Assembly (NCBI GenBank): GCA_026120185.1
Contig: JANUWF010001218.1
Location: forward strand, 3,100,001 to 3,164,000
Direction of reading: 5' to 3'
Origin: Voacanga thouarsii
Lineage: Eukaryota; Streptophyta; Magnoliopsida; Gentianales; Apocynaceae
DNA: 64,000 nucleotides
Position numbers and translations under genes: made by a program. The notes under the pieces were generated by a model. That model was not told where the DNA came from, ran no database searches, and was given only the letters and a program-made list of their open reading frames with translations. Shown piece after piece: positions 3,637 to 55,419 of the stretch. The stretch's first letter is position 1, and every line of letters starts with the position of its first letter.

Positions 3637-5140
3637 TGATAGGGGCTAAAATCACCATTATTTTTCTAGTTATTTGAGATTGTTTCGAGATACATTTGTT
3701 GTAATAACTAGGTATATTCCTTCCTATTTGACATTTTGCTTGTAAAAAGTATTTTTAGCAAATTTGTGCAGATTTGAGTTAAATTCAAGCAAAAAATGAA
3801 CAATTCCAGAATGCACATGGCGTCAGGCCCAGCCAAGGGACCAAGCGTCGAGTCCATTCTAGTCAAGCAGAGAGAACCAAGCAACTTTCAGGAAGAAGAC
3901 AGAATAGACCTGGTGCCAGGTCAGGTAAGTGGACCAAGCGTCGGGTCCATTCTAACCGGCTAGTGAAAAGAGAGCTAAAAAAATCAAAGAAAAAACATAT
4001 TGTACCTGGCGCCAAGTGGGTCGAAGGTACCCGGCACCAAACCCACTCTGGAAGGTAAAAATTCTGTGCATGAATTTGAGAATTTTAAGATTTCGGTATT
4101 TTCTAATTCTTACTCGGCCAAAATCCCTCAAGAAACGAATTTAGCTTCAAAGAGGCCTATAAAAGCAAGAGAAAAGGAGGAGAAGAGTGGATCAAAAAGT
4201 ATAAATTCCAATCACTCATTGAAGGAAGAATTCACCTAATTAAGGAGGATTATTCAAGAAGTCTTCAAAGGTGAAGAACAAGGCTTGTCTATGAGTGCTT
4301 TCTTTTATCTTTATTTTCTTTTCCTTAAACAATGATGCATTCAATATTTTTATTATAATTTAAAATTATTTTGGGATTCATGATTTTGTGTTAATTTGGC
4401 TATGTAATCAATTCTTTATCATCTTTGGTGTTTAATTACTTGTTATCATTAGTTACTGATGTAAATTCTTCTAATTGACTGGGAAAAACGATGTTAGGAG
4501 TTTATTGCATTGCTTTTGTATTTGTCTAATCTTAATAGACTTGAACGATGAAGTTAAGATTATAGAACTAAAGAAATTGAAGATTAGTTGATTTCACCTC
4601 GAGCAAAGGGTTATTAGCTAACTTCATGCTTATAAGGAATTGAGCATAATGCATGTTTTGGTTATATTAGCTTGATTGGAAAATCTGTTAATATTAATCA
4701 AAAAATAGTAATTCCATGGATTGAGAAATGAAGTGGAATTTATTTAAGTAGATTTATAACTTGTGAAATGATTGAATTTTACTTTATATTCCTTCATGAT
4801 GCTAAAATGATAATTAATTGAAAGAATTGTTAATTGGCTCATTATCATATTTTTTTAGGATAATTGTCTAAATTGCATAACCCTATATCCTTGAATTGTA
4901 TATATTTCTCTTTTTTTTATTATTATATTCTCACTTTATTTGGGTTGGTTAAATAATAAATGAAAAGTGATTACTGTGTACTTGTTCCTTTGAGGATTGA
5001 TACTCGTTAATTTCCTATGCTATGCTTGCGATAAGTATACTTGCTCGTATATGTATTTTGGGATTAATGTTTTAATTAAAACTTGACTAAGAGATGGATT
5101 TAAATTTGATAATTTTTATACACTCAAAATTTACGTATCA
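3637..5140 (+). mobile_element. Gypsy 3' LTR (copy A)
   Basis: A 1504-bp LTR running TGATAGGGG...CGTATCA. Its promoter region contains TATAAAAG at 4158. It is homologous along its whole length to the solo LTR at 5444-6959, though clearly diverged. The U3 carries several GGCGCC-like repeats (for example ctggcgccaag and ctggtgccagg). The base after its 3' end enters a copia LTR copy that lacks its first 335 or so bases, so this gypsy element is inserted in that copy. The expected target duplication is ttaat at 5141-5145, with its partner outside the window. Confidence 0.8.
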
Positions 5141-7640
5141 TTAATACATAGATTCTTGTTACATGAACTAGTTATTGAATGACATAATTATGAGATAATC
5201 ACATGGATAACTATTTAGTGCTAATGATAAAATTTTATTATAGTAAAAGTGCAAGTATTTTTAGAATTGAGATCTCTAAGGGACTTTGTATGCTAAGTAT
5301 TGTATTTTGATCCCTATCATTGGAATCTCTTTGAAACGGCCTATAGGGAGGACATTGTGTCTAGTATGAAGTATACGAAAGTAATTGAGAAGATCAATAA
5401 AGGATTCATCCCTCCTAATAATAGGAGAGTATATATCGCGGTCTGATATGGGCTAAATTAGTCGTATTTTTTCTAGTTATTTGAGGCTCTTTTGTGATAC
5501 ATTTTGTTTACTAACTAGCCATATTCCTTCATATTTGAGATTTTACCCTTGGAAAGATATTTTGTTCATTATTTCAGATTTTAAAGGGAAAACGAAGCAA
5601 AAACGTCACAAAATAGAATAGAGGCGGCGCTGGCCAGGACAGAGGAACCGATGCCGGCCATGTGCTGATGACACGAACTTCGAAGCGATGAAAAATTGTT
5701 GAAACGAGACCGGAACATAATGGAACCAGCACCGGCTCCAGAAGCCAAGGCGGCGCCAGCTGTACTCTGGACAACATGGTGCTGAAATCAAGAAAATATT
5801 GGCAAACGATTAAAGAAACAGAACACAACCAGCGCCGACTCCAATAGCCAAGGCGGCATCGGCTGTGCCCTGAGGAAAAGACGGGATCTTGATTTTTCAT
5901 GCGGTTTTTGGTAATCTGTGAAATTTTAGTACTTTCCTACTTCTACTCGGCCAAGAACACTACACCAACGAGTTTAGACACTTCGTAAGCCTATAAATAG
6001 ATGGAAAACACAAGGGCAAATGAGAGAATTCATTAACCATCATAGAAAATCACTCAAATCAAATGAGGAATTCTTCAATTTAAGAAGGGTTATACAAAAA
6101 GTCTTCAAATGAAGAAGAATGAGGCTTGTCTATGAGTACTTTCTTTTACTTTGTTTTCTTTTTCTTGAACAATGATGTATTAATTATCTTATTATAATTT
6201 GACATTGTTTTATGTGTTCATGATTTTTAGAGTTATTTAATCTTTTGATTAATTGATTTTTTTCTTGGTATTTAATTACTTGAGTTGATTACAAAATTAA
6301 TTAGTTGTTTCTTTCCATTAACTTGCTTGGAAAAGGAATTGATGGTGGTTTCAATTTATTGATTTCATATATGTTGTCTCTTAACTTGCTTGGAAAAGGG
6401 GTCAATTGCTAAGAATTGGTAATTAAAGGTTAATTGATGTCTGTCAGGAATGGATTCGTTGGTTAATTTCATGTTTTAAGTTTGCCGGAATGGAAATTGA
6501 ATCAAAAGATTGTGTTTAATGCATCTTTTTTTGTAGGACTGGTTGAGACAGGAATGTGATGCTAAGTTATCTAGAAGATAGGGATTCATGGATTGGAAAC
6601 GAAGTGAGTCTATATTAATCCTTTATGATGCCAAGAGAATAATTAGTTATGATAATGGTTAGATACTTTAAGGTCATGTTTGCCAAAATAATGGTTTAAG
6701 TTACATACTTCTTCATCCTTGACATGTATATATTTTTATTTTTTTTCCTTTTTATTTCTTTTTCACTTTATAGAGTATATTAAACAATGAAAGAATGGTG
6801 ATTAATGTCTACTTGTTCCTTGAGGATCGACACTCGTTTGAACCCTATGCTCTGTTAATGATGAGTACGCTTACTTATATGTGTAATTTGGGGTTAACGT
6901 TTTAATTTAAACTTGATTAGGAATGTGCTTATTTTTATACCCAAATAAAATACACATCATGGTCACTTATAGGGAATCATTACTCAAGAAGCCATTGGCC
7001 AAAACAACTATGTATTAAAAATAGTTCCAAATTATATACAGGTTAAGTAATAGATTTTGGAACAAGTACTAATAAATCTGGACTAGAATAAATTATATTC
7101 TAAAGAGAGTTGGCACTAATTTCATATTTTAAACCGAATGAGATATAAAATGATGAAAGGAATTTATTGTACTAATATTTTGCTAGTAAAAGGTCCATGT
7201 AAAATCACTTGACTTTTTGAACTTTTTAAGTGGTCAAGACGCATTGTTAGATGCCGCTCTTGATCTGTTAAATATGAATTTATTAATTAGATAATTAATA
7301 AATTAATTTTAATTAAAATTAATAAGTTAATTCTAATTAACAAGGATTACTAATTCTATAATTATTAGAATTAGCTCATGTTTTGCTACCAATAAACTAG
7401 AAAACCTAATAGATCACGCACAATAGAAGAATATGTACTCAAAATATTATATGATAATATTATAGGGACAATTTGTGATAAGAAATAACTTTATAAGCTA
7501 ATTATAAATTGGTTATAATAATTGGGATCAAGATTGCAATTACTAAAACTTTACAGTCAAATTATAAACTTATTATAGTTTGAGGGCCAAATTATAATTT
7601 TCAAAAATCAAGTCCATAATGGAAAAGGCTTTGTTGTTGT
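5141..7640 (+). mobile_element. Second copia LTR copy, inverted, 5'-truncated, split by a solo LTR
   Basis: Positions 5141-5443 plus 6960 to about 7640 are the reverse complement of the homologous stretch of the LTR at 1400-3157 (matching roughly its 1880-2830 part). The two pieces join cleanly when 5444-6959 is removed. The first third of a kilobase is missing at 5141, where the gypsy LTR abuts. The right boundary is uncertain because similarity fades after about 7640. Divergence from the 1400-3157 copy is substantial. Confidence 0.65.
5444..6959 (+). mobile_element. Gypsy solo LTR (copy B)
   Basis: A 1516-bp LTR, TGATATGGG...ACACATCA, homologous to the LTR at 3637-5140, with TATAAATAG at 5992. 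It is flanked by cggtc (5439-5443) and tggtc (6960-6964), a 5-bp target duplication with one change. The host sequence on either side is continuous with the inverted copia LTR. There is no internal region, so it is a solo LTR left by recombination. Confidence 0.8.
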
Positions 7641-10143: not shown

Positions 10144-10907
10144 CAGCTAATCCAGAGTTCTGTAAACATCTTTGGTTTCTAGGGCCTGTTGGGACGGAAA
10201 TTTTCACAGTAGTAACCATTGCAAGTGTCTATCTGTAAGATGAGTACATATGAGTTTCAGAGTGACAAACACGTAAAGCCCATCATTCAAATAGATGAAA
10301 AGCAAGCACATGGATAGGAGAGGCAAACTGTCTATCAGGATTCAGATCCAGGAATGGAAAAAATTTTTCCAAAATACTTCTGGGTAGTAGGTTGATCTTA
10401 TATCCCATATATACTTGATTTGTTTCCCGTAAGCAGAAAGAGGTAAATCTGTTTATCCCAACCCTGATATTTTGAAGGCCAACATGTACACATATACAGC
10501 ATCAAAGAAAGCACCAAAACTGAAACTTAATCAATTGAAGGTAAGATTTGAGGTAACACAACGACCATTGAGGACCACAGTATCTTTTTAAGTTTATAAT
10601 CAAATGGGACGTCTAACTATTCAACAATGCTCCAATTCCTAAGTGGACACCTCATTAATCAGCATGATCCCTGAACCCTCCGATATAGAAAATGAAGGCA
10701 CCAATAAGGAGAAGGCAAATAAGCAAAAACTAAGCCATTTGAGAAAAAGCAAGAAATGCTTACAATAGGGTCAAGGGCTGTTTCTTGTTTGCACATTATC
10801 CATGGAACCCCAGTGTTTTGTCCCACAACCATCTGTGCTGCCCACTTTGTATATGCCTTACCGAGAGCACCAATTGTCCACCCCATTGGGCCATACTCAT
10901 TCTCAAT
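10144..10907 (-). pseudogene. Beta-galactosidase (GH35) fragment, two exons
   Basis: Exon A (10764-10907, 48 codons) reads IENEYGP, then [23 protein letters not shown] and DPI, with a TTCAG acceptor and a GTAAGC donor. Exon B (10144-10232) reads IDTCNGYYCENFRPNRP, an in-frame TAG, KPKMFTELW, again with proper splice borders. In plant GH35 enzymes these exons are consecutive. The motif IENEYGP contains the glutamate conserved in the family's active site. Upstream and downstream exons are absent, and the TAG sits where the family usually has tyrosine. It is a dead internal gene piece, probably transposon-carried. Confidence 0.85.
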
Positions 10908-12760
10908 CTGAACATGACACCCATTAAATTTTCTTTAAAACTTCTTCCTACCAGTGGATGAATTAAGAAATTTCCTTGAAATCAAAGAAAACCAAAAGGA
11001 AGCTGAACCCATTTCTCTAGAAACGTAGCAAAAGACAAAAGAGATGATATTTCTCTATCCTACTAAAGGCCACACTAAGAAAGCTTTTTAGAGAGACAAA
11101 CTTCAAAAATACTATAGGCAAAGGGGGAAAAATTAGAAAAATGGCATAACTTTCTTCTGGGGCACTGGGACTTATTGCAATGCACCTTAGCCCAAAGAGC
11201 CATCTCCACCACATCAATGCCAACAACTTTGGGAAGATAGCCTAATACATCTTTGCAGATGTTTAAGATTCACATCAAGAAGCCAGTTCTTACAAAAAAT
11301 AAGCATGTCAAAGACAAAAACAAAACACTAAAATTAAGAATAAATAGTAATTGAGAAATTAGGACATTTGCATACAGTAGTTCATACCTATCATCAGCGT
11401 TATGCATAGTCTATTGAGATGGACTAACAATCTGACTTCCAAGGTTATCAAAAGCCTAAATGAATGAGATCAATCCAAATAAGTTTAGTGCTATTTCTAA
11501 CATGTAAAAAACCTCCAAAATAGAAAAATCTTGAAAAGTATTAGCACTATCCCAGAGATATGCACCAAGGAATACCATCATAAATGTACATCCACTCAGA
11601 TTATTTGTTATAAACTCCAAGATGCTTCAGCTTATAGAGTTTGGCGGGCTATACATTCAAACAATAGATTGTTATCAGCTATCTGCCTAATATATCTCCA
11701 AAAAGACGAAACAAATTAATAGCTCCAGTCACTGTCCCCAGAATCCTGCCACCACAAAAATTACTACTACAAAATAAAAATAAATTTAAATAGCATAACA
11801 CTTTATTGTAGGTATGGTATATCAAAGCAAACAGGGGTGGCCATTATAGGCATTACTACTTGAGAAGATCAGAATCAGGTGGCAAAATGTTATGAATTTA
11901 TTTAGTATACAATTTATCACTATAGCAACAACAAATACACATTGCCAAATCGTTGCGTCCACTCATAAAAAGATCAAAACAAATTAGCAGCCCAAATTAA
12001 ATAAATCTAACCCCAGCAGCTGTATGCAGTTTGTTCATCACAAGTCCTCAAAATAGTTCTAGGATTGTAGTAGTGCAAAAGTTCTATCATAAATTTACTG
12101 TATAATAGAAGGTAGCAAAATTTAAGCATACCAAACAGACGCTAATTTGGCTTTCTGGGAGCAACATCAATAGTCCTATTTTGTTTTGGTTAGAGGCGAG
12201 ATTCTTCAAAGTCATCAGAAGACTCCTCCTCCCTTTTCTTGTTCTTTTCTCTGCGATTAACGTCGACCACCTTGCTCTATCGTTGTGGCTAGGTATGTTC
12301 ATTATTTGCTCTCATCTGAACCCTTGTCCTTTTCTACTCACACAAATCACATGGAAAAAAGTTAGGATAAGATAACATACAAAAACAAATTAGCACCACT
12401 GAAAATGGAAGAAATGATGAAAGAATTTATGAAACTAATCGAACCTGAGTGATAGTCTCTGAACCAACTTACTTTTCATCCATTAGGAAAGGCTCTCTAG
12501 ACAACCAATGGTGGCGCCGCGTCCTCCGCAACTATCGCTGCTACTCCTGTTGTTGCTGCCTGCATGTAGATGGATCTGATCCCTTCGTGTCTCGGATTAA
12601 CGAAGAGCCAATGATGGATTCTAGAAAGAAGAATAGGAGAGATGTTGGGAGATGTTGGGTTTTGAGGAGTTCTAGAAAGGAACGGAAGAAGAAAAGATAG
12701 TATGGAAAAGAATAAATATAAATTAAGATATATCAATATATCCATTCATGAGTTTTCATA
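10908..12760. other. Sequence with further exon-like scraps, no identified gene
   Basis: On the minus strand several short stretches look coding-like: [12 protein letters not shown] around 11170-11230, RREKNKKREEESSDDFEES around 12190-12260, and an alanine-rich TTGVAAIVAEDAAPP around 12500-12550. None could be tied to a family, and none forms a long frame. They may belong to the same captured-fragment cluster as 9407-10907. Confidence 0.3.
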
Positions 12761-33553: not shown

Positions 33554-33641
33554 ACAAGTTTGTCATACGTTGGATAAAAGTTATGGGTAAAATTGAAAGA
33601 AACAAGTGATATAAGAAAAAAAAAAACAAACAAAAACTTAG
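33550..33641 (+). repeat. Segmental duplication, copy 1 left part
   Basis: Together with 38698 to about 38830 this is homologous, in direct orientation, to 54207-54425. The shared phrases include TTGTCATAC, AGGGTAAAATTGAAA, and on the other side GGACAGATG, ATCCAAT and ATATGGGCTTT. The copia element sits inside this copy and is absent from the other. Confidence 0.6.
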
Positions 33642-33984
33642 TGTTATGAATTATTGGAATCTCCATTAATTAGTGGAGGCTCCACTAATTATGGATTTAT
33701 GTGAATTATTAGAAGATTTTTATGGATGTCCACCATTTAGTGGAGACACCATTAATTGAGATTAGTTGAAGATGATGTATGCCATGATGTATTTCACTAA
33801 TTAGAGCTCTATAAATAGAGCTATTCTCTAAGCTTGTAATACACCATCATTTTGTGAAAGAAAGATTAGTGAAAGAAAGATTAGAGAAAGAATTGTGAGA
33901 GAAAGAAAGAGAGAAGTTTGAATTAGAATTTTCTTAGTGTGTAGTGTGTAGATTTTATTCTAACACTACCCTAATTTTATAACA
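33642..33984 (+). repeat. Copia 5' LTR
   Basis: 343 bp, TGTTATGAATT...TTATAACA, with a TATAAATAG promoter element at about 33811. It differs from the 3' LTR by three substitutions and one 1-bp indel. Confidence 0.95.
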
Positions 33985-34029
33985 CGTTATCAGCACGAGT
34001 CTCTGCCGTTTTAAAGCCAGAAGACAGGT

Positions 34030-34550
34030 ACGCATTTATTGATCTCGCTAAATTCGAATTTGTAGCCATTGATATTTACGAAAAAAAATTTATATGTCAT
34101 ACGAAATGCATCTAAATGCTAAAAAAAGGAGATCCATATGTCATGTGGATAAAAAGAAAGATTTGACCACTCGAAGATGGTCGTACTACCCATTGCACGG
34201 TATGAATGGTTGCACCTGAAGTTGCAAGATTGTAAAACCGTGAACTCCGTGATGTATAAAACTACATCTTAGTTAAAAATTTTGCGGAGAAAAAGTTACT
34301 GATGAAGTTATATTGGAGAAGACATTCTCCACTTTTCATACCTCGAATATTGTCCTGCAGTAACAATATCGAGAAAAATGGTATCCCAAATTGACAAATT
34401 TAATATGAGTTATTATTGAGAAATCATGAAGCGGATGAAGCGGCTCAACAGACACTCCCAGAAGTGAATGCTGTTAGCTCCAGCAGAAGCCATCGTTATA
34501 GTCGTAGTTGTGGCAGTGGCCGTGGTTATGGTCATGGACACACTCGATAT
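34030..34550 (+). pseudogene. Copia gag remnant
   Basis: Scattered in different frames are gag motifs of this copia group: GEKVTDEVILEKTFSTFH, then VLQ and QYREK with intervening stops, and at the end a serine/glycine/arginine stretch (SHRYSRSCGSGRGYGHGH) like the C-terminal RNA-binding tail. A large part of gag between about 34140 and 34270 is deleted or scrambled. Not translatable as one protein. Confidence 0.75.
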
Positions 34551-34556
34551 TTCCCT

Positions 34557-35780
34557 TATCACTGCGAAATGAGTCTTGAGATTTTATGATCTCCTTAAGT
34601 TTATTATATTTCTTATTATATTTGGCCTTGAAACATGCTTGTCTCAATTTCTGTGTTTGGTCCTCTAACTGCGTATTAGGACTTTCTTCCACCAACTGTT
34701 TTTCACATTCCAGTATCGCAATGGCTTCTTGTAATTTCTTCTCAGCCATTTGTCCTCCTTCTTCTTTATTTTGCATATCCTGTAAATCGAAGTGATATCA
34801 TCGGTTATTTACTTATAAATCTTTCATAGTTTCATACTTAAGTATGTATGAGAGAGAACCTGAACATTCTTGATTATGGTCTCCAAGCTCACCAATTTCC
34901 TGTGAGGCCATCGACGAATTCCTAACTCCCTACATCTTTTCTTGAGACGGGTTATGCCAATATTCGAGTTCTTTGGTTGCGCTTTTGATTGGTAGGTAAA
35001 AATCTTTGCGAAATTGTTTCTCTTGATAGTGTCTGGGAGTTATTGCCATTCTTCTCTCTCTGCCTCTTAATCATCTTCTTCTCCCCAAGAATTTTGTCTG
35101 CAATAATATCTTGAACTTCGATATTATGCATTTCATGAGTACTTACTCCGACTTCGTTGCCAAGACCACTCATTATTTCTCCTAGAAAAAGAAAATAATA
35201 TCGATAAAGGTAATACCATTCAAAATCCATGTTTAAATGTATAATAACCCGGAAACATATTATGGCTTTGTTCAAAATCCATTAGAGAGTAGAAAGGATC
35301 ATGCACAAGCATATCCTCATTCAAAGGAATAGCATCAAGAAGAACAGATATCAAAGCGAGTCTCTTGTAGAGGCGGATTAACTTGGTCCAAAGCGGTATG
35401 TTCAAAACTTCCACTGATTTACATCAAAAACAAACCAAAAGAGAGTTTAATTTCATTATCAAGCACACTAAAAACAAATGGAAGCTATCAAAGGTATCTC
35501 ACCTGAAATTAGGAGGAAGTGGTTGGTTTGGAAAGGAAAATATATCAAAATCTTCTGCGTTCGAATTAGACAGAAGCGGTTGGTTTGAAAAGGAAAACAT
35601 ATCAAAATCTTCTGCGTTCGAATTAGGCAGAAGCGGTTGGTTTGGAAAGGAAAACATATCAAAATCTTCTGTGTTCGAATTAGGCAAAAGCGGTTGGTTT
35701 GGAAATGAAAATACATCAACATCTGCTGCAGAAACTAAGTCAAAATTTGACCATGTCTCAAATGAATTACGAGTCTCCAT
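34557..35780 (-). pseudogene. RWP-RK (RKD-type) transcription factor gene, antisense inside the copia element
   Basis: RKD proteins are plant DNA-binding regulators of egg-cell and embryo identity. Exon 1 (35503-35780, ATG at 35780) encodes METRNSFETW followed by four copies of a 19-residue acidic repeat with FSFPNQPLLPNSN. Exon 2 (35249-35413) holds FEHTALDQVNPP and, after a frameshift, an acidic stretch. Exon 3 (34860-35181) ends in the RWP-RK domain: ITRLKKRCRELGIRRWPHRK. Exon 4 (from 34779 down to about 34557) encodes the coiled-coil tail ending LRQACFKAKYNKK. All introns have GT-AG borders. Frameshifts are visible in exon 2 and at two sites in exon 3 (near 35010 and 34970), so no full protein is made. 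Upstream to about 36060 there is an AT microsatellite/TATA-rich leader. It occupies the place of protease and integrase. Confidence 0.88.
35503..35735 (-). repeat. 57-bp tandem repeat in RKD exon 1
   Basis: About four imperfect copies of a 57-bp unit, kept in frame, each encoding EDFD(M/I)FSF(P/S)NQPLL(P/S)NSN with slight changes. Similar acidic/aromatic repeats are typical of activation regions, but that role is inferred. Confidence 0.9.
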
Positions 35781-35841
35781 ATCTGCTTTGTGATTTTTGT
35801 TTTTGATGTTTACTAATGACTGATAACTGAGATATATATCG

Positions 35842-35843
<2 letters not shown>

Positions 35844-35878
<35 letters not shown>
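35844..35878. repeat. AT microsatellite
   Basis: A TA run lies about 70 bp upstream of the RKD start codon, in its leader or promoter region. Confidence 0.9.
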
Positions 35879-35879
<1 letters not shown>

Positions 35880-36089
35880 GTATGAAGAAGAAGAAGAGGT
35901 AGATGGTAGGTAGAGGGTCGGAGGAGAAGAAAAGACAAGAGAGGAAGATGAAAAGTCGATGACGGGAAGAGTGAAAAAAAATAGATATTTTTCTTGGCAT
36001 TTCCTGCTTGTCATCATTTTCTTATATTTATTTTTTTATTCTCTTATGAAATCATTATTCCCTAAATTAAGAGGAGAATAGAAACAGTA

Positions 36090-38227
36090 CAAGAAAGATC
36101 GTGATTGGACAACATCATTAAATTATCTTGATCCGCATACAAGCGCATGTGAACTTGAAGTTCAAAAGATAATTCATTTGTAAAGCATTGCAAATCAAAT
36201 GCCAGACGCTTTTGTTGACTCTAGAAGAGTAACAAAATCGCATATGCCAGCTATAAATGCTCCTATTCGAATTGAAGTTCCAGCAGAACAAAATATTATA
36301 CCTATAGCTGCTGAGCCAAAAGCATGCCAGAAGCATGGCCGACCTCTTGGTTCTAAAGATAAAAATCCTCGAAAGAAAAAGGATTAAATGATCCAGAAGA
36401 TCATATTGAAGAAAAGAATGATAAAGACCAAGAAAGAACTGATGACAAAGAACCAGAAGTTGATGAAAGTAACACTGAAATTTCTATCAATTATACCACT
36501 TCTGGTAGAAGTTGGAATCGGATAGAAACTGTTATTGATGATATATTTGCATACAATATATCTCTTGATGTTACACAGGATAATGATGATCCTGAACCAA
36601 TATCAGTTGATGAATGTCGGCATAGAAAAGATTGGCTGCAATGGAAAGATGCGATTCAATCGGAGTTAAATGCACTGACAAAACGTGAAGTCTTCGGACC
36701 TGCAGTCCGAATACCAGAAGGTGTAAAACCTGTTGGCTACAAATGGATATTTGTGCGAAAGCGCAATGAAAAGAGTGAAATCGTTCGATATAAAGCGCGA
36801 TTAGTAGCCCAAGGTTTTTCACAAAGACCAGGTATTGACTATGATGAAACTTATCTCCTGTTGTTGATGCTATTACACTCCGATATCTTATCAGTTTGGC
36901 AGTACATGAAAAGATAGATATGCGCCTATTAGATGTTGTCACTGCTTACTTGTATGGAAATTTAGAAAATGATGTTTACATGAAAATCCTCGAAGGATTT
37001 CATATGCCTGAAGCATATAAACATTATCCTCGTGAAAATTACTCCATCAAGTTGCGTAAATCATTATATGGCTCTGAAGCAATCTGGCGCATGTGGTTCA
37101 CACGTCTTAGTGAATATTTATTGAAAGCGGGATTTAAAAATGACCAGGTATGTCCATGCATTTTTATTAAGAAATCGATTCTAAATTTGTGATATTAGCT
37201 ATATATGTTGATGATATTAATCTTATTGGAACTCTGAAGAGCTCCAAGAAACAATTGATTATTTAAAAAGAGAATTCGAAATCAAGGATTTTGGTAAAAC
37301 CAAATTTTGCCTTGGTTTACAAATTGAACATTTGGAAAGTGGAACATTTATTCATCAATCAACATATACAGACAAAAGTGCTAAAAGATTTTACATGGAC
37401 AAAGCACATCCATTGAGTATTCCAATGATCGTCCGATCATTAAATGTGGATAAAGATCCTTTCCGACCTCAAGAAAATGATGAAGAACTCCTTGGTCCTG
37501 AAGTACCATATCTCGAGTGCAATTGGTGCATTGATGTATCTTGCTAATAATACAAGACTCGATATTGCTTTTCTTTGTCAATTTATTAGCAAGATTTAGT
37601 TCTTCACCAACACGACGACATTGGAATGGAATTAAACAAGTCCTTCGATATCTCCAAGGTACAATTGATCTCGGATTATTTTATTCAAATAAAACCAGTC
37701 CAACATTGATAGGTTATGTAGATGCTGGTTATTTATCTGATCCACATAAAGCACGTTCTCAAACGGGCTATCTATTTACATGTGGAAATACTGCTATATC
37801 ATGACGTTCTACGAAACAATCTATAGCAGCTACTTCTTCAAATCATGCTGAAATTATAGCCATTCATGAAGTAAGTCGAGAATGTGTATGGCTAAGATCC
37901 ATGATTCATTATATCCGAGAAAGTTGTGGATTATCATCAATCAAAGGTATTCCAACTCCTCTTTATGAAGACAATGCAGCTTGCATAACTCAATTACGAG
38001 GAGGATATATTAAAGGAGATCGGACAAAACATATTTCACCAAAATTCTTCTTTACTCATGAACTCCAGAAGAAAAGTGAAATTGATGTGCTACAAATTCG
38101 ATCATGTGATAACCTCGCAGATATTTTCACGAAGACTTTACCGACTGCAACATTTGAAAAGTTGAGATATAAAATCGGTATGCATCGGTTTAAAGATTTA
38201 AAGGAATCATCTCATCAGGGGGAGTAA
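36090..38227 (+). pseudogene. Copia pol remnant (integrase C-terminus, reverse transcriptase, RNase H)
   Basis: The first part encodes the tail of integrase (LDPHTSACELEVQ, QMPDAFVDSRRVTKSHMPA). Reverse transcriptase begins around 36600 with KDWLQWKDAIQSEL, GYKWIFVRKRN and YKARLVAQGFSQ; the catalytic YVDD is intact at 37204-37215. RNase H follows, with the frames LYEDNAACI and NLADIFTKTLP ending at 38227. Small indels and stops break the reading frame near 36850, 37065, 37170, 37220, 37375, 37510 and 37800. Family order is normal for Ty1/copia; only its N-terminal domains are missing, displaced by the RKD gene. Confidence 0.9.
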
Positions 38228-38350
38228 TAAATGGACATATAGAATAGTGTACTCTTTTTCCTTCACTAGATTTTTTTCCCACTGGGTTTTTATCTAGTAA
38301 GGTTTTAATGAGGCATATTCTTTATGTATGGATGGACATCCAAGAGGGAG

Positions 38351-38692
38351 TGTTATGAATTATTGGAATCTCCATTAATTAGTGGAGGCTCCACTAATTA
38401 TGGATTTATGTGAATTATTAGAAGATTTTTATGGATGTCCACCATTTAGTGGAGACACCATTAATTGAGATTAGTTGAAGATGATGTATGACATGATGTA
38501 TTTCACTAATTGAGCTCTATAAATAGAGCTATTCTCTAAACTTGTAATACACCATCATTTTGTGAAAGAAAGATTAGTGAAAGAAAGATTAGAGAAATAA
38601 TTGTGAGAGAAAGAAAGAGAGAAGTTTGAATTAGAATTTTCTTAGTGTGTAGTGTGTAGATTTTATTCTAACACTACCCTAATTTTATAACA
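38351..38692 (+). repeat. Copia 3' LTR
   Basis: 342 bp, preceded by the purine tract CATCCAAGAGGGAG. The direct repeat of cttag follows immediately. Confidence 0.95.
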
Positions 38693-38697
38693 CTTAG

Positions 38698-41858: not shown

Positions 41859-43398
41859 GTGAGTTCTTGTTAGCTGAAAAACATGTTCTGCAAGTGGTTT
41901 TTAAAAAAATTCATGGCCACAATATCACAATATGTAGTATTTCCTTTTTTTAACCTGCCCAGTGTAGTGTGTGAATGACTTTTGAACTAACTCCATAAAT
42001 TTTTCCTTTACAATAGTCTAACAACTCATAGATAATTGTAAGTTCGTCCGTTTTATATATGCTTTCTTAAAGCATTATTTTGCCATGTTTAAATATGAAT
42101 ATAATCTACACTTTACTTATCAGCTTTTAGATATTAATGAATCTCTTAAATCCTTTTCTCTTCTTAAGAAATCCACCTCTTTTGAACCTCTTTACTCCCT
42201 CACTGTCGACCTCTTCCTCAAACCTCTCCCTTTATCGTTTGTGGTTGCTATCGATCGGTGTCATTAGCTGCTTTCTGCTTCCCTTATCTCACTATGTGAC
42301 AGTGTTTTCAAAGTGGAGACCCTTTTAAAAATAACATTATGCTAGTTTAAAGGTGATTTCTTTTAACTAAATGTCTGTTATTTTTTAGCTTCCTGTCTTT
42401 GTTTGTCTATATAATGCTTTAGTTCAAACCCAATATGGAGCTTTTATTGCAATTTTTCTCTGTTTCTTGATTTATGCTTGGTTTATGTTTCTCTGCTTTC
42501 CAATAGCTTGTGTTTTATATTTTTCTACTACTTTTTTAGAGTTCTACCATTTTTTGTGAAATATTTGATATTGTGGTTGCAATGAAAAAAAAATATATGG
42601 TTAGAATGCGGTTTAGAAATTTGCCAGAATTATTATTTTTATTTGGTGAAAAAAAAAATTGATAAACAGTGCTTTGTTTCTTGTGTTCTGAATATCAAGA
42701 TTCAATCATAATTATAACTAGTTTTATCTAACGCAACTTAAATAAAGTCCTTATACTTTACTCTGAGCCTTTTTCCCCCCATTCCTTGCTCCCTTCTGTT
42801 GTTTGGCTCTTGCAAAAGGACCATTAAGAAGGTATATGTGGCTGAAAGAAAATATGAAGGAAGAGAATCATGAAATTTTCATGAAGACCTGGTTATTAAA
42901 AGCTAGACAAGATACAAAGAAGACTGGTAGGAGGCATATTTTATTTTGAGTAGATTTTTTCATTGTTGCTTCCTTAATTTAAAGAGAATTATATCAATGA
43001 TTTTTGGAAGGCTATTTTCTTTGTGAAATGAACATCAAAATCAGTATAACGAATTTATTATGTACCATCAGATTTGTAGTCTTAATTGATGCTATAGGCA
43101 GTGTTCCATTCTTCAAGTCTCTTATGTTGTTTATCATTTTAGTCTATAAAAAAGAATTTAATTGGTTCTTTTATCCAAGTTTTATTAAATTTTGTCTCTT
43201 TTGGCATTATTATTTTTTTGTTTTTCTTTTTTAGCAACTGAAGCTTGTATTTGGAATTGAATCCTGCATTTCTTGAGGGACTTTAAGCTTAAATGAAAGG
43301 GAGTAAGTAAATTGTTGAAAAGTATTAGAACTGTTAATTGAAAAGTATCAGAACTATTAGTTGAACATTCTTGGATGCTAAACACATGATACTCTTGA

Positions 43399-43931
43399 TG
43401 TGATGCCCCAATCCCACATGGGATTGGGATGAGAAGTATGAATGGTATATAAGAATGGGCCTAAATACCAATTGTCAACTTGGGATATCTATTTTGGTCC
43501 AGCGAGGACGGCGGCCAAGAAGTTGACCGTAGGTACTGCCAGGCCCATAGTTGCACTCCCGGGTCTGCGGGCACGGGACATGACATTTGGTATCAGAGCG
43601 GTAACTAGCCCCGGTATGGGAATTAAGTGCTACACTGTACGCGGTGGGAGCCACCTCTAGAATCCTATGCCACCTGGTTGGTCCTAGGTTTGGCCCCTAA
43701 AGTATGGGTCCAGTGAGGACGTTTGAGCCTAAAGGATGGGTGAATGTAATGCTCCAATCCCACATGGGATTAGGATGAGAAGTATGAATGGTATATAAGA
43801 ATGGGCCTAAGTACCCATTGTCAACTTGGGATATCCATTTTGGCCCAGCGAGAATGGCAGCCAAGTAGTTGACCGTGGGTGCTGTCAGGCCCATAGTCGC
43901 GCTCCCGGGTCCGCGGGCACGGGACGTGACA
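43399..43931 (+). mobile_element. TRIM retrotransposon (complete)
   Basis: Two 187-bp LTRs (43399-43585 and 43745-43931), TGTGATGCCCC / TGTAATGCTCC to ACATGACA / ACGTGACA, enclose only 159 bp. A primer site TGGTATCAGAGC (43588-43599), complementary to initiator methionine tRNA, follows the first LTR by two bases. Flanking 5-mers cttga (43394-43398, 43932-43936) are identical. No protein is encoded, which defines a terminal-repeat retrotransposon in miniature. Confidence 0.95.
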
Positions 43932-44804
43932 CTTGAGACTGTTATGCTAAGGGAAAGGAATTAGTAGAATGGGTTTGAAAAAGGAGAAAGAATCTTTAGG
44001 TAAAATGAGTGTGAGTTATCCTAACATAATGATTGCTATGTTTTGCTAAAAATAATAATTGGCTTTTGCAAGATCATCTAATACTTGTTCTTTTCCTTTC
44101 TTTATCATCTAAATAAGTGACAAATGGAATTAGAAAAACTACATATAAAGGGCTTCGTTTGTCGTGTGAGTTGGAGTTGGACCACCAATTAAAACTATAT
44201 TTTTCTTTCTAAATTTGCATTATGTACTTGTTAATGTCGAAAACCTTTGTTCTTATTCTTAAATTTCTCAAATCTCTTTGAATACAGGACTATCATTCTA
44301 TTCAAAAAATACTTCATGTTACTCTTATATGCATATTTGCATAAAATATCCTAGTGGTCTGTTGCCTCTAAAAACCTCCTTCTTTTCTACTAGTTGAGCA
44401 TCCCTCCAATGCATTCTTTCCATGCACAATGTCTATAGGGTAGTAAATTGAATCAAAACTCAAGTGTAGAGTGACGAATCTCCCTGCCATTAAGTATAGC
44501 CTGCAATATTTCCTCCTTCAGAATAGTACCTAACTATGCTTCTTGACAAAAAGTAAGAAAGATTCATGGCATGTACGATTGTTGTTTTAGGCTTCTTTTA
44601 GAAATGTTTGAAGTGAAGTTTTGTAGTTGTAGTGATTACCCATTTTGAAATAATAATTGCAGTCATATAATAAGTTGAAAATTACTATCTTGAAAGTGAC
44701 ATGAATATCATCACAAGTTACATTAAACATATATTTTATACTATGGATTTGTGCTTATAAAATACTCGGTTTGGCATTATTACTAGTAAATTCTCTATCT
44801 TTCT

Positions 44805-46199: not shown

Positions 46200-48790
46200 T
46201 TAACCAGTGAGCCACTATCATATGCTTGGGGCTTGTGTTCATGTGAACGTGTAAGGTAATCATACAAAGTGTTCATGTACTCGTGGTATGTAGTTCATGT
46301 GTTTGTGTGGCAATGTCCATATAGTTCATGTGTTTGTGTGGCTATTGTAATGCATTGTGGTTCTTGATCCATCGTAGCAAGCTTTGCACATTACCAACAA
46401 TGCCAAGAAAAGTACTGTTAGATTGATAATTTTTGGATAGAATGATGTACAGTGACATGATTTCCCCCCCCTTCTCCCACTGTATTCTTTTATCATTCGA
46501 AACTTGATTAGATAGGATATTGATCTCCTGTCTGGTACACCCTCAATAGAGAGAGACAGGAGCGGAGAAGGGAATATGATAGGTTCCTTAGTATTCTGCA
46601 ATGTTCTACAATGAAATTTGGATGCAATAATTTTTTTTATGTTCTAATATCTTCTCCAATATTGTACAATGAACTATGATAGGGTAATGAAATTTTGATG
46701 TAAAAAACATGTAACAAGTATAAAAAGATAATCCCGTCTCGCTCAACTTTTTTTTCCTTCTCAAACTTCCATTTCTAGTACACCTACTATTTTTTTTTTC
46801 TTTTTCTTTTCCCCTCAGTACTATTCACATCCCCTTCAGCACAATTTCTGTCTTTTACTTTTTGATATGCTATATCACTGATTATGCCTTGATCCTTCAT
46901 TGTTGTTTTTCTCTTTGCAATCTTCTTCCATTATTTATATGTTATATATAGAAAATACATGCTTAGAGCTTGTGTTCATGTGGTTGTGTAAAGTGTTGCT
47001 GTATTTGTGTTAGTTGTTCATGTGTTCCTGTGTCTAGTTCATATGGTTGTATAAGTTGTTCATATATTTATATCCTGTGTTCATGTGTTTGTGTGACTTG
47101 TTCCTGTAGTAAGTAATGCAGATTGACCAATGCGGTTTTGTAAGGTATTCATATAGTTATGTCAAGTGTTCATGTGTTTGTGTGCCAATGTCCATGTAGT
47201 AACGGACGATATGCAGGTTCATGCTAAAATAGTTTCATAAGTTGTTCATGTGTTTGTGTGGCTAGTTCATGTAGCAACTAGTACATATTGACCAACTAGT
47301 CTAATTATTATCCTATGCTATTTGTTGTTACTCGTTATCAGGTGTGATATTGGGATTATGGCTATACAATTCTTAGAACGGTGGTGGGGTTGAATTGACC
47401 CATTTGTGACCAAGGTAATCCAAGAGGAAAGTATCATGGTCGGGTTTCAATTTTATCTCTTTAATACACATAGATTTAATTTTGTGTTCTGTTGATACGC
47501 AACTGGACAAGTTAATGCCAATCGGTACCGTGTGCAATCCTGCGGGGCATTAATGAGAGCCAGTGCAAATGAGGAGCAAGAACGGATATGCCACGAGCTG
47601 AAATTATCTAGCTAGGTTGCTAAGCACTGGAAATGATGGTGGAGACAGAAAGGTGTTGGAGATGCTCGAACACGGAGAACTAACTTATCATTTGGAAATG
47701 CTTTGGAGATGCTCGATAGGAAGGAGGCTCCCCTTCATAGTATGACTGAGGTTTCTGAATCAGACCAAGGTGTGAGTGGGGTGCAGCAACACAAATGTTA
47801 TTGCTTGACATAAAAAAGCCTGCCAATTTTTTGAATTCTACTGACCCCTTCTATATACTGTATTTTCATGTTGGATATTTAATGGATATTAAACGAGGAT
47901 GAACAGTGCTGTTTATCGAGGATATATTACATAGTATTGTTGGTGATACATTATTATGTGTGTAGATAAGTAGTGCATATGGTCTTAATCAAACTTGTGG
48001 TGTTTGTGCTTCAACGTTAACGTATGATATATAAACAGTGTTTTTAAAGTTTGTCACGAGATAAGTAGTGCATATTTGTCTGTGTTTATGTGGTTGTGAA
48101 AGGTTGGGAATATATTGAGGATTGTGGTCATGTAGATATGTATGACGTTCATGTATTTGTGACTGGTGTTCATGTGTTTGTGTGGCCGTGTCAGTGTGGC
48201 TGTGAAAGGTTGACTATATGGTTGGTAGGTGTTCATGTAGTTATATAAGATGTTCATGTGTTTTTGTAACTGTGTTCATATGGTTGTGAAAGGTTGGCTA
48301 TGTTGGGATTGTGTTCATGTTGTTATGTAGCATGTTCATTTATTTTTGGTAGGTGTTCATTTGTTTGTGTGGCTGTGTTCATGTGGTTGTGAAAGGTTAG
48401 CTATGTGGTTGGCAGGTGTTCATGTGGTTGTAAAAGGTTGGCTATATGGTAGACAGGCAACATGGTAGACAGGTGTTCATGTGGTTGTAAAAGGTTAGCT
48501 ATATGGTAGACAGGTGTTCATGTGGTTATATAGGATGTTTATGTATTTGTGGTATGTGTTTATGTGTTTGTGTGGCTGTGTTCATGTGGTTGTGAAAGGT
48601 TAGTTATATGGTTGGCAGGTGTTCATGTATTTGTAGCAGATGGTCATGTGTTTGTATGGCTTTGTTAAAGTGATTGTGAAAGGTTGGCTAACTCTATGCC
48701 ATTGTGTTCATGTTGTTATGTATGATGTTCATGTTTTTGTGATAGATGTTCATGTGTTTGTGTGGCTGTGTTCATATGGTTTTAAAACTT
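46200..48790 (+). repeat. Degenerate minisatellite field (GTTCATGTG units)
   Basis: Dozens of imperfect copies of TGTTCATGTGTTTGTGTGGC and GGTTGTGAAAGGTTGGCTAT alternate, densest at 48100-48780. The order of the two blocks is partly regular, suggesting higher-order units of about 80-120 bp. No long coding frame. Reverse-oriented relatives (CACATGAAC, ACACAAA) occur at 44990-45320 and 49570-50170. Confidence 0.8.
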
Positions 48791-51779: not shown

Positions 51780-52546
51780 CACATACCTGGTGCATTGGTG
51801 TGCCTTTCGTGGTCTCCATTTGTCAAGAAAACTCTTCAATCGTTTTCATGATATCATGATAACTTCAGATGGTCCTTTAAATCTACATTAAAGCTTTCAC
51901 TCAATTGTGTACTATGCATCCCAGCCGTCCAGGTACCCATCAGGCAGTATCATGCCCACTTCACTCTAGCTACAAATATGCTTTTGGATCTATTCATTTG
52001 TCTCCAACTCGCTTCAAGTCTTTTTTGGTGCACTCTAAATTTTCTTTGTCACCTACTTGTGCTGACATTAGTTCATGAGATTGCTTTAAAGATAATCCTG
52101 CAGCTTTGGCTAAAGAAGCGTCGATGCCTTGCGCATTGCTCACATTCCTCTGTGACGGCATGAGATGAACACAGGCAATAGTATAAAGGTCATGGTTGTG
52201 GCTTGATTCAAACTCGGTCTCCTTGTATTTTTTTTTTCTCCCTATCTAGAACAATGACCATCCGAGGAGCACAATCGGTCTTCCTTTCTGCACGAGGACA
52301 CTTAATTTCTCTATCATATTTATCGATCCTTAGAAACCCTACTTTGCAGCATGTAAACCTCCTAGATGTCAACACACCAAAGTCATTCTTGTTCCCATAA
52401 TCTCTACGTATACCAAAACCCATAGTTGCACCATAACAATTGTAAAAGTTGTACGCTTCTTCATCAGAATCAAGTAACTGTCCAATAGCAAGTAAAAAAC
52501 AAATATTCGCACTTGTACAATCCTCCATTAAAAGGAATCTATGCAC
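51780..52546 (-). pseudogene. FAR1-type MULE transposase, decayed
   Basis: 52208-52546 encodes a FAR1 DNA-binding domain: DSDEEAYNFYNCYGATMGFGIRR, SRRFTCCKVGF, CPRAERKTDCAPRMV. After a frame change in an A run near 52230 it continues EFESSHNHDL, the conserved His pair of the domain, and SLAKAAGLSLKQSHELM to a stop near 52010. A separate piece around 51780-51950 reads GMHSTQLSESFNVDLKDHL, a C-terminal transposase motif. The central catalytic DDE part was not found, so the gene is dead. FAR1/FHY3 regulators of plants derive from this transposase type. Confidence 0.8.
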
Positions 52547-53487
52547 ATCATTAAAAAAAAAAAAAAAGGAACAAAAAAATATATTAAAATACTTGAGTAC
52601 CCTTACAGGTAAATTTCATAGGATGTTCCAAAACAGGTTACTAATTCCAACCAATAAGTGCAATATGTAGATAAAAAAGAAATATTACTATCTTGGTCAA
52701 ATTTAAAGAATTACAAAGACATCAGTAATAAACTGTTAAAATATTTTTTCAACTGGAACATGTAAATGTATAGGCAATTGAATACATTGCGGGAAAAATT
52801 TTTAATTTAACCTCGAGATAATCAGAGAGAATGTTATACATAAGTTGACGTGTGGTCAGATGCTGTGCTATGCTCTGCTGTGTTCTGTATACAATCAATG
52901 CTGCCAAACAAATATGTATTAACAAGTAAAGTAATCACATGAACATGAATGTATACATTACTAACTCACTTTCACAGAGACATAAACATAAATATTAACC
53001 TAAAAATCCAAATTACATTGAATGCAATTTTTCAGATGAACATACTTAACTATCGGAAGACAACTTAGGTGACTGGATATTTTTACGAGGAACCTTAACT
53101 GCAGATTTTGAAGGAGAAAAATCCCCTTTAGCATTGCATGCCCATTGCCTCGTTTGTGTATCAGGAGCGCTTCAATTTCGTCATATTACACTAACTCTAT
53201 CGACACCATTCAAAATAATCTCAGTATTTGAAAAAATGAGAGAAGAAAGAGAATGGAAATATTAACATCTGAGGAAAGCTTTTGTTTATGTTTGCACAGT
53301 AGGTGATTTAAGCGGGATTTTTAATTTTTTGGTGAACAGTACAAAATACATATACAGTAGAACTTGCAGAGGCTTGTGGAAGCTGGCTAACAATACAAGC
53401 CACGATTTTCAATCGGTTAGAGGCAAAATGACGTCGTTTCACACTTTTTTTGGGACCAGCGGTGTGGAAGGTTCCTAGCCAGACAAT

Positions 53488-54425: not shown

Positions 54426-55419
54426 TTTGAGAAACATCCCCTGCATATTGGTCTTTTAGAAATATTTGCGTCTTTCATAGTTTCAGCTACTCGATTTAGT
54501 CCACAATTGATCACCTCAACTTGTTTTTTAATTAAATCTACCATTGCAACTTTTCTTTTTCCTTCTTCCTTTGGTGTGTCAACATCAGTTATTTTCAGAC
54601 ACACTAATATTTTCAAAAGGGGAGAAAGAAGAATCAACATTTACGAAGGGTTTATCCAAATTAATTGGATTTTCCTCCCTAGCCCATTGATATAATCATT
54701 CCTTAGCACTTATTGTGATATTCTAATGTCACGCCCCGTGCCCACGGACCTGGGAGTGCGATTATGGATCTGACAGTACCCACAGTCAATTATTTGGTCA
54801 CCGTTTTCGTTGGGCCAAAATGGATATCCCAAGTTGACAATGGGTATTTAGGCACATTCTTATATACCTAGACCTATCTTTATATACTATTTATACTTCT
54901 CATCCCAATCCCATGTAGGATTCGGGTATCGCACTTATAGCACGTTTCCCATTTACACAGTCTTTGACAAAAATATCTCTATTTTGTCATAGTGGGAAAT
55001 TGTAATGTACCCTCATTTTCCAATTTTAGGTTTAGCTTACAAAAAGAAATGAAAAGTTAATAAACTTTTTTAGGAATTATAAGTTAACAATAAAATCAAG
55101 ATAAATAAAAAATTATTAAGAAAAATTTCACCTCTATTTTTTCCTTCCATACTTGTGGCTTGGCTTCAAACATTCTTGATTCTTGATTCCAACTAAAAAC
55201 ACTCAATCCATGAAAGAGATCGTAGCAAATACCAAGATTAGCTTTTAATGTCCTCAAACAATTTTTAACATGATTTTTGTTTATGGGGTACCCAAATTTT
55301 TTACTACAATACTTCACTATAGTAGCATATGCTTGGGTTGTCCATGTTCCATCAACTCTATTTCCCTTCTCTCACTCAAGTATAAATGCATCAAGAAGGA
55401 TCTCATCTTTCCAAGTCAT
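54416..55419 (-). pseudogene. PIF/Harbinger ORF1, Myb/SANT-like protein, decayed
   Basis: From ATG 55419: MTWKDEILLDAFILE, a stop, then GNRVDGTWTTQAYATIV and NHVKNCLRTLK, GLSVFSWNQESRMFEAKP, the Myb/SANT-like (Myb_DNA-bind_3) domain found beside Harbinger transposases and in plant L10-interacting Myb proteins. A C-terminal piece at 54416-54690 reads DLIKKQVEVINCGLN. A TRIM solo LTR lies between the two parts. In Harbinger elements this protein helps the transposase enter the nucleus and bind DNA. Confidence 0.75.
54727..54933 (-). mobile_element. TRIM solo LTR
   Basis: Reverse complement of the TRIM LTR at 43399-43585, starting TGTCACGCCCCGTGCCC on the plus strand and ending CGAATCCTACATGGG in reverse. 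Length 207 bp, with a small internal TATA-region duplication. No clear target duplication; ends may be off by a few bases. It splits the Harbinger ORF1. Confidence 0.8.

Follow-up and report, generated by a model that had tools for sequence, protein, structure and literature searches.

Host-gene capture by plant LTR retrotransposons is reported to be common, with 672 captured genes in rice, 1343 in sorghum and 424 in maize (PMC3726574, PMC2774510). A second kind of cargo is formed by the conserved antisense ORFs of these elements, whose origin and function are stated to be unknown in a review of additional ORFs, which also reports no similar genes outside the elements (PMC7264820). Grande gene23 of maize is reported to be nuclear and to be transcribed from its own upstream promoter, and the same source also notes that HTLV has an antisense promoter (PMC7264820). 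The RWP-RK/RKD family of transcription factors has been linked to egg-like cell fate (PMC11202622), and CitRKD1 has a reproductive role and is linked to nucellar embryony in Citrus (PMC6090715). In the titles and opening abstract lines of the open-licence PMC papers examined, no report of an RWP-RK or RKD gene inside a retrotransposon was found.

Here we describe a copia element in a 64,000-nucleotide stretch of the Voacanga thouarsii genome (the window). An earlier note had recognized it as a copia element with intact ends carrying an RKD-type gene in antisense, with introns. Unlike the antisense ORFs described above, this RKD gene has introns and is recognizable as a host transcription factor.

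The element in the window

The window holds a Ty1/copia insertion with LTRs that are identical at 339 of 342 positions, plus one 1-bp indel, and it is flanked on either side by the 5-bp target site duplication (TSD) CTTAG, a 5-bp agreement for which the probability by chance is about 0.0017; this confirms the intact ends claimed before. The features are collected in Table 1. Paired LTRs with TG..CA ends, the 5-bp TSD and a run resembling a polypurine tract are all present, as in Ty1/copia elements; the run we take to be a polypurine tract is CAAGAGGGAG. RVT_2, the copia-type reverse transcriptase (RT), was detected in the element, and rve was found upstream of the RT region in L051, a relative that has no RKD gene. 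The RVT_2 pieces sit in different frames, so the RT/RNase H (RH) region is broken as well. Directly after the 5' LTR, at 33985-34000, the sequence starts CGTTATCAGCACGAG, which is not the plain initiator-tRNA complement that many copia elements are expected to carry after the 5' LTR. Scans of the window with Rfam at the gathering threshold and for tRNAs were empty, a viral-contig scan with the RNase H region of the element confirmed no relative, and a library of solved structures gave no match.

Between the gag remnant and the RT/RH remnant the minus strand carries four exons separated by GT..AG introns of 89, 67 and 80 bp. The RWP-RK domain matched PF02042 at 1.6e-12 in one frame piece and at 2.4e-15 in a spliced read with X at the frame breaks. 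Three frameshifts, one in exon 2 and two in exon 3, interrupt the frame, and for this reason the copy encodes no complete protein. In lesion dating of this single copy, the frameshift counts of RKD and pol were not clearly above the expectation from the LTR pair. At 34560|34561, 322 bp of the copy L024 are absent; the missing part runs from the gag end through the RKD 3' UTR and stop codon into exon 4, of which the last part is lost. Judging from this alignment, the left edge is a later deletion and not the capture junction; a short exon 4 was also seen in L030 and L013. The right edge was placed near 36030, where similarity to the RKD-less relative resumes. The segment had earlier been bounded at 34557..36060, of which the left limit lies at the deletion breakpoint and the right limit too far out. 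The antisense RKD-type gene with introns thus stands, with four exons and three introns, but its frame is broken and its 3' end truncated. Given the broken frame and the missing 3' end, the RKD gene of the window is a pseudogene, and the element around it is defective; this copy is a recently inserted, broken and truncated member of a family.

Table 1. Coordinates of the element features, numbered by window position.
Feature	Position	Strand	Basis or remark
TSD CTTAG, left	33637..33641	.	LTR/TSD comparison
5' LTR, 343 bp	33642..33984	+	339/342 identical to 3' LTR
gag remnant, broken frame	33985..34560	+	aligns to gag of other copies, via L024 to L051
C-terminal Gly-rich stretch of gag remnant, readable	34404-34589	+	
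Breakpoint, 322 bp of L024 absent	34560..34561	.	alignment to L024
RKD exon 4, 3'-truncated	34561..34779	-	
RKD intron 3, 80 bp, GT..AG	34780..34859	-	
RKD exon 3	34860..35181	-	contains RWP-RK domain (about 34880-35035); two frameshifts
RKD intron 2, 67 bp, GT..AG	35182..35248	-	
RKD exon 2, one frameshift	35249..35413	-	
RKD intron 1, 89 bp, GT..AG	35414..35502	-	
RKD exon 1 including start codon	35503..35780	-	
In-frame 57-bp tandem repeat, 3.9 units, in RKD exon 1	35507-35729		
Captured RKD upstream region, about 250 bp	35781..36030	-	leader and presumed proximal promoter; AT microsatellite inside
Integrase-region end and RT/RNase H remnant	36031..38227	+	frameshifts, in-frame stops
Polypurine tract-like CAAGAGGGAG	38341..38350	+	
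3' LTR, 342 bp	38351..38692	+	
TSD CTTAG, right	38693..38697	.	

Elsewhere in the window, a diverged tandem-repeat array with periods near 21, 57, 82 and 203 bp lies at 48075-48787. Two pairs of inverted copies (1970-2525 with 6957-7519, and 2520-2822 with 5141-5441; 72-77% identical) perhaps represent an old transposon, and a repeat of about 190 bp occurs in direct and inverted copies at 43398-43589, 43744-43935 and 54725-54933 (77-90% identical). Minus-strand ORFs at 10659-10934 and 52208-52615 resemble a beta-galactosidase exon and a FAR1-type domain, respectively.

The RKD-bearing family and the captured segment

The assembly searched, from the same genome as the window, comprises 1,345,666,469 bases (1.35 Gb) in 1,848 contigs. 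A PF02042 search gave 3,618 first-look RWP-RK candidates, and all 150 that were scored passed the Pfam cut-off and had no internal stops. Fetching 10 kb for each of 20 of the 21 best among these 150 scored matches showed the RWP-RK gene in antisense within an LTR-gag-RKD-pol-LTR element at 17 loci; among these, L013 had no detected gag and one LTR only, and the 3' LTR of L011 fell outside the fetched piece. The other three were L009 and L010, which are distant RWP-RK genes, and L020, a related RKD with neither LTR nor gag. L009 and L010 (contigs C486 and C1026) have open exons and were the two best PF02042 matches; their RWP-RK exons gave no blastn match to the element gene, and L010 has a fragment of the element at its edge.

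A 27-mer spanning the RKD/pol boundary had 2,610 matches in the assembly with at most 2 mismatches (1,287 forward and 1,323 reverse), compared to 0 for the reversed control and at best 7 mismatches in the RKD-less L051. The same threshold was satisfied by 43 of 45 tested loci and, among the loci not chosen by the boundary query, by 19 of 21 (exceptions L010 and L019). RKD sequence was present at all four loci fetched from the boundary list (L053-L056, 4 of about 100 listed places), in L055 partially. The family therefore has about 2,600 boundary-bearing copies, a figure that counts boundaries and not complete elements. The search for the same junctions in other copies, proposed in the earlier note, thus gave a clear outcome: the junction is not unique to the locus but recurs genome-wide, in elements with different TSDs. 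These comparisons support the view that the RKD gene was already inside the element before the element moved.

The LTR divergence K of the 15 fetched elements with both LTRs ranged from 0.008 to 0.138. Substitution rates between 6.5e-9 and 1.3e-8 per site per year place their ages at about 0.3 to 10 million years. Perfect 5-bp TSDs were found in 11 of these 15 elements (the others being L015, L016, L027 and L028), or in 12 of 16 if the window element is included, and every TSD was different. A tree rooted on L020 had the form of a ladder in which L013 branched first and the window copy fell within the most recent group. The tree was dropped as a test of a single origin of the element copies, L020 being the sole outgroup, and a single capture is suggested instead by the boundary that the copies have in common. 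None of the 14 complete elements had an open frame across gag or RT/RH, the longest pol piece being 338 aa (L023). The RKD form has no integrase region and thus does not possess the intact gag, protease, integrase and RT of an autonomous element. Three fetched pieces contained a second family member within about 1 kb of the first-fetched element (L012/L050, L018/L052 and L025/L051).

The last of these neighbors, L051, adjoining the element in L025, is the RKD-less relative. Its LTR is 96.5% identical to that of L024, and its stretch from RT/RH through the 3' LTR is 91.5% identical. L051 has its own LTR pair (363/367 identical) and the TSD ATTTT. At the position of RKD it gave matches to Pol_BBD, gag_pre-integrs, rve and SH3, with a zinc knuckle below the cut-off; Pol_BBD was taken as marking the protease region. 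Alignment of L024 with L051 showed an insert at element positions 983-2617, which is 1,635 bp long and displaces 1,668 bp. Read along the gene, the insert begins with about 250 bp ahead of the start codon, continues through the four exons with their three introns, and closes about 45 bp past the stop codon.

A related RKD outside any detected copia element, as expected for a transduced gene, was found at L020 (C2:1963400-1973399, about 4000-5650). This locus is about 75% identical to the element RKD over 1.2 kb, has no LTR or gag match and a pol match of 24 bp only. Since L020 also aligns across most of the upstream region of L024, with a local score of 126 against a shuffled maximum of 79, this upstream region belongs to the RKD gene. 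L020 is itself decayed, with the start lost and several stops, and may be regarded as a possible donor relative. Insertion of a Helitron or MULE into the copia element was judged unlikely, as no hairpin/CTRR end was present and no terminal inverted repeat occurred among the 25 of 30 inverted pairs shown; both checks were made on the window copy, in which the left edge results from a later deletion.

The state of the gene was followed in an alignment of 36 copies, which leaves out L010 (edge fragment), L011 and L015 (large insertions in RKD), L020 (non-element) and L049-L052. The insertions in L011 and L015 measure about 1.5-1.9 kb. An undisturbed four-exon frame was found in L024, L025 and L043, in which every splice site is present and any indel against L024 is a multiple of three; the RKD of L023 is open as well, although part of its exon-1 repeats is read in a shifted frame, and that of L046 is open without a stop. 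Intron sequence was present at all three positions in all 36 copies, with the donor GT in 104 of 108 cases and the acceptor AG in 96 of 108; in L028, where exon 2 is deleted, the neighboring introns are shorter. A sample chosen without regard to the frame (n=25: L029-L048, which are 20 of 39 non-window matches, L053-L056 and the window copy; below, the ORF-blind sample) contained one strictly intact RKD (L043), L046 being without a stop and L053 without start and stop. RKD lesions did not rise with LTR age (15 elements, Spearman 0.006). The number of 57-bp repeat units in exon 1 differs among copies, and exon 1 is mostly near 164, 221 or 278 bp long.

The L024 gene encodes a protein of 365 aa with a natural stop, which matches PF02042 at 8.3e-23 over positions 2-49 of 49 and thus has a full RWP-RK domain. 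This was the sole Pfam match at E<=0.01, and no PB1 domain was found. The PB1 domain marks NLPs, and the RKD type is defined by its absence (PMC11202622). We therefore assign the predicted product to the RKD-type RWP-RK proteins on the basis of Pfam, size and PB1 absence.

Probable constraint on the RKD frame and its possible explanations

To compare RKD with pol, variants were scored against the codons of one observed copy and binned by the number of copies sharing each. The 15 elements used exclude L015; L011 and L013 are without one detected LTR. RKD variants common to at least 3 of the 15 elements comprised 43 synonymous and 53 nonsynonymous changes (N/S 1.23, neutral 3.32, P=2.4e-6), and the N/S of singleton variants was 2.62. 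In pol RT-RH of the same elements the shared variants were 29 synonymous and 77 nonsynonymous (N/S 2.66, neutral 3.07, P=0.29). Since shared amino-acid changes are depleted in RKD and not in pol, selection seems to have kept the RKD protein. The depletion in RKD persisted without the RWP-RK domain (P=1.6e-4) and with transitions only (RKD P=1.5e-4, pol P=0.67). It was also found in the 25 ORF-blind copies (shared RKD variants 38 vs 50, P=2.5e-5), where shifted frames gave P=0.76 and 0.21.

When two groups of copies were considered on their own, depletion was observed in each: P=1.2e-4 for the 27 copies of group A and, depending on the reference copy, P=7e-6 or 2e-6 for the 8 copies of group B. 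In the tree group A is a clade with a low support of 0.41 and group B a grade. Mean pairwise dN/dS was 0.39 within A (36 pairs), 0.36 within B (28) and 0.36 between A and B (72), and values against the most diverged copy L013 were 0.50 and 0.70 (9 and 8 pairs).

Several contrasts were weaker. For the near-fixed differences between groups A and B (12 synonymous, 25 nonsynonymous) the departure from neutral was not significant (P=0.13). With transversions alone the depletion was weak or absent (P=0.029 for 36 copies, 0.27 for 15). The direct contrast of singleton and shared variants in the first ORF-blind set gave P values between 0.055 and 0.37, according to the choice of bins and reference and the treatment of the domain. 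The same contrast for pol gave P=0.079, and thus pol is not quite flat. One antisense control frame shifted in the same direction as RKD (P=0.014), the +1 frame and another antisense frame shifted in the opposite direction (P=0.044 each), and ORF-blind singletons were slightly below neutral (P=0.034). Overall the family has the two properties of a conserved antisense ORF, many copies and conservation, the latter with the weak contrasts just listed. Purifying selection on the RKD frame during the spread of the family, with pol near neutral, is likely, although not proven, from these sequence data.

In the mechanism that we propose, a Ty1/copia element evidently exchanged the stretch from the gag end through the integrase (about 1.67 kb) for a complete antisense host RKD gene (about 1.64 kb), and the captured piece comprised a short 3' UTR, the four exons, the three introns and about 250 bp upstream. 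The resulting non-autonomous family, as its present copies indicate, retained LTRs and RT/RH remnants and was amplified to about 2,600 boundary-bearing copies. The introns would have persisted because the copied RNA is antisense to the gene; of this explanation, already offered in the earlier note, the retention is borne out by the 36 aligned copies and the reason is one that we infer. The missing proteins may be supplied in trans by integrase-bearing RKD-less relatives such as L051. In the lineages that went on transposing the RKD frame would have stayed under purifying selection with pol drifting, a step that the tests above support with the weak spots mentioned. The RKD gene would be transcribed from the upstream region captured with it, its RNA would be spliced and translated, and the product, a transcription factor of the egg-cell/embryo type, could help the element to be expressed or transmitted in reproductive cells. 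By analogy, such action may be likened to that of the accessory antisense genes of retroviruses, which serve the virus. The whole account of antisense RKD capture, amplification, frame-conserving selection and benefit to the element in reproductive cells seems to us moderately probable, and the earlier interpretation is partly supported. A more specific reading, that of a selfish family in which selection kept a complete, intron-bearing antisense RKD through millions of years of transposition for expression or transmission in the female germ line, is put forward tentatively, as possible but short of probable; by analogy and as part of the same reading, its RKD would be the plant analogue of the oncogenes or accessory transcription factors of viruses.

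The constraint could also originate from the host. If the plant has put one or a few of the element-borne RKD genes to its own use, perhaps as substitutes for a resident gene that was lost, selection on these source loci would conserve the frame of their descendants. This agrees with the decay of L020, the only related RKD found outside an element, and with the open frames in three of the five youngest of the 15 elements (L023, L024 and L025). The separate depletion in groups A and B, however, looks as if several moving lineages were constrained, and we consider such domestication unlikely.

More doubtful still is that RKD displaced dispensable sequence and rode passively on the amplification of the family, the selection signal being an effect of sampling or alignment. 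The insert of 1635 bp is nearly as long as the 1668 bp it displaced, so that length alone might have mattered. Moreover, 24 of the 25 ORF-blind copies are not strictly intact, and several selection contrasts are weak. Against this, the signal relative to neutral is frame-specific, persists without the RWP-RK domain, in ORF-blind copies and with transitions only, and is absent from pol of the same elements.

LTR-driven RNA antisense to RKD, as proposed in the earlier note, or double-stranded RNA formed with sense RKD transcripts might give small RNAs that silence parental RKD genes or the element. The orientation of the gene fits, one transgenic citrus line with forced antisense expression of CitRKD1 is reported to have lost nucellar embryony (PMC6090715), and captured sequences in maize are reported to serve as reservoirs of siRNAs directed at their donor genes (PMC13317346). 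Such control does not predict conservation of the amino-acid frame, and as the explanation of the family it appears very improbable; it may act in addition. Insertion of the element around a resident RKD, or recombination at one, was rejected as having next to no probability, since the two TSD copies at the window locus match and the boundary recurs at some 2,600 further sites in the genome.

Comparison with known systems

The favored account, antisense capture of RKD followed by amplification and frame-conserving selection, has parallels in several described systems. HBZ is an antisense spliced transcription factor gene of a retrovirus, HTLV-1, and the RKD gene resembles it as an antisense regulatory gene on a reverse-transcribing element. 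The two are not homologous, HBZ being located in a complete virus and belonging to another protein family. The Rider/SUN case of tomato concerns a transduced segment of one locus and not an amplified family. As an LTR retrotransposon that moved a host locus, Rider/SUN (PMC13317346) parallels the RKD family.

CitRKD1 of 354 aa and the L024 protein of 365 aa are both RKD-type RWP-RK proteins, but CitRKD1 is a resident gene of six exons with a MITE upstream and lies outside a retrotransposon (PMC6090715), whereas the element RKD has four exons. Since the gene family is tied to egg-like fate and nucellar embryony, the idea that a mobile element carries a reproductive regulator to its own advantage can be tested. 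Many RWP-RK sequences in the V. thouarsii genome reside in transposons, and gene counts as well as the mapping of RKD or apomixis loci would be misled by them.

Like Bs1 and other captures by plant LTR retrotransposons, some of which were remobilized, the RKD element has a host gene inside an LTR retrotransposon (PMC3726574, PMC2774510). Bs1 and TRIM captures are reported to be exon-only (PMC4717578), whereas the RKD family carries a whole gene with introns. Captures are described as usually being in sense orientation and present in one or few copies (PMC7264820); RKD is antisense, occurs in about 2,600 copies and has an apparently conserved frame. In having a conserved antisense gene in most copies the family resembles maize Grande with gene23, rice RIRE2, Silene Retand and bean PvRetro13 (PMC7264820). 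The antisense ORFs of those four elements are located between pol and the 3' LTR (PMC7264820), whereas RKD replaces the integrase region. Here the origin of a conserved antisense gene can be read directly, from a whole intron-bearing host regulator and an RKD-less relative that shows the displaced part. The family thus joins two known kinds of cargo, the captured host gene and the conserved antisense accessory gene.
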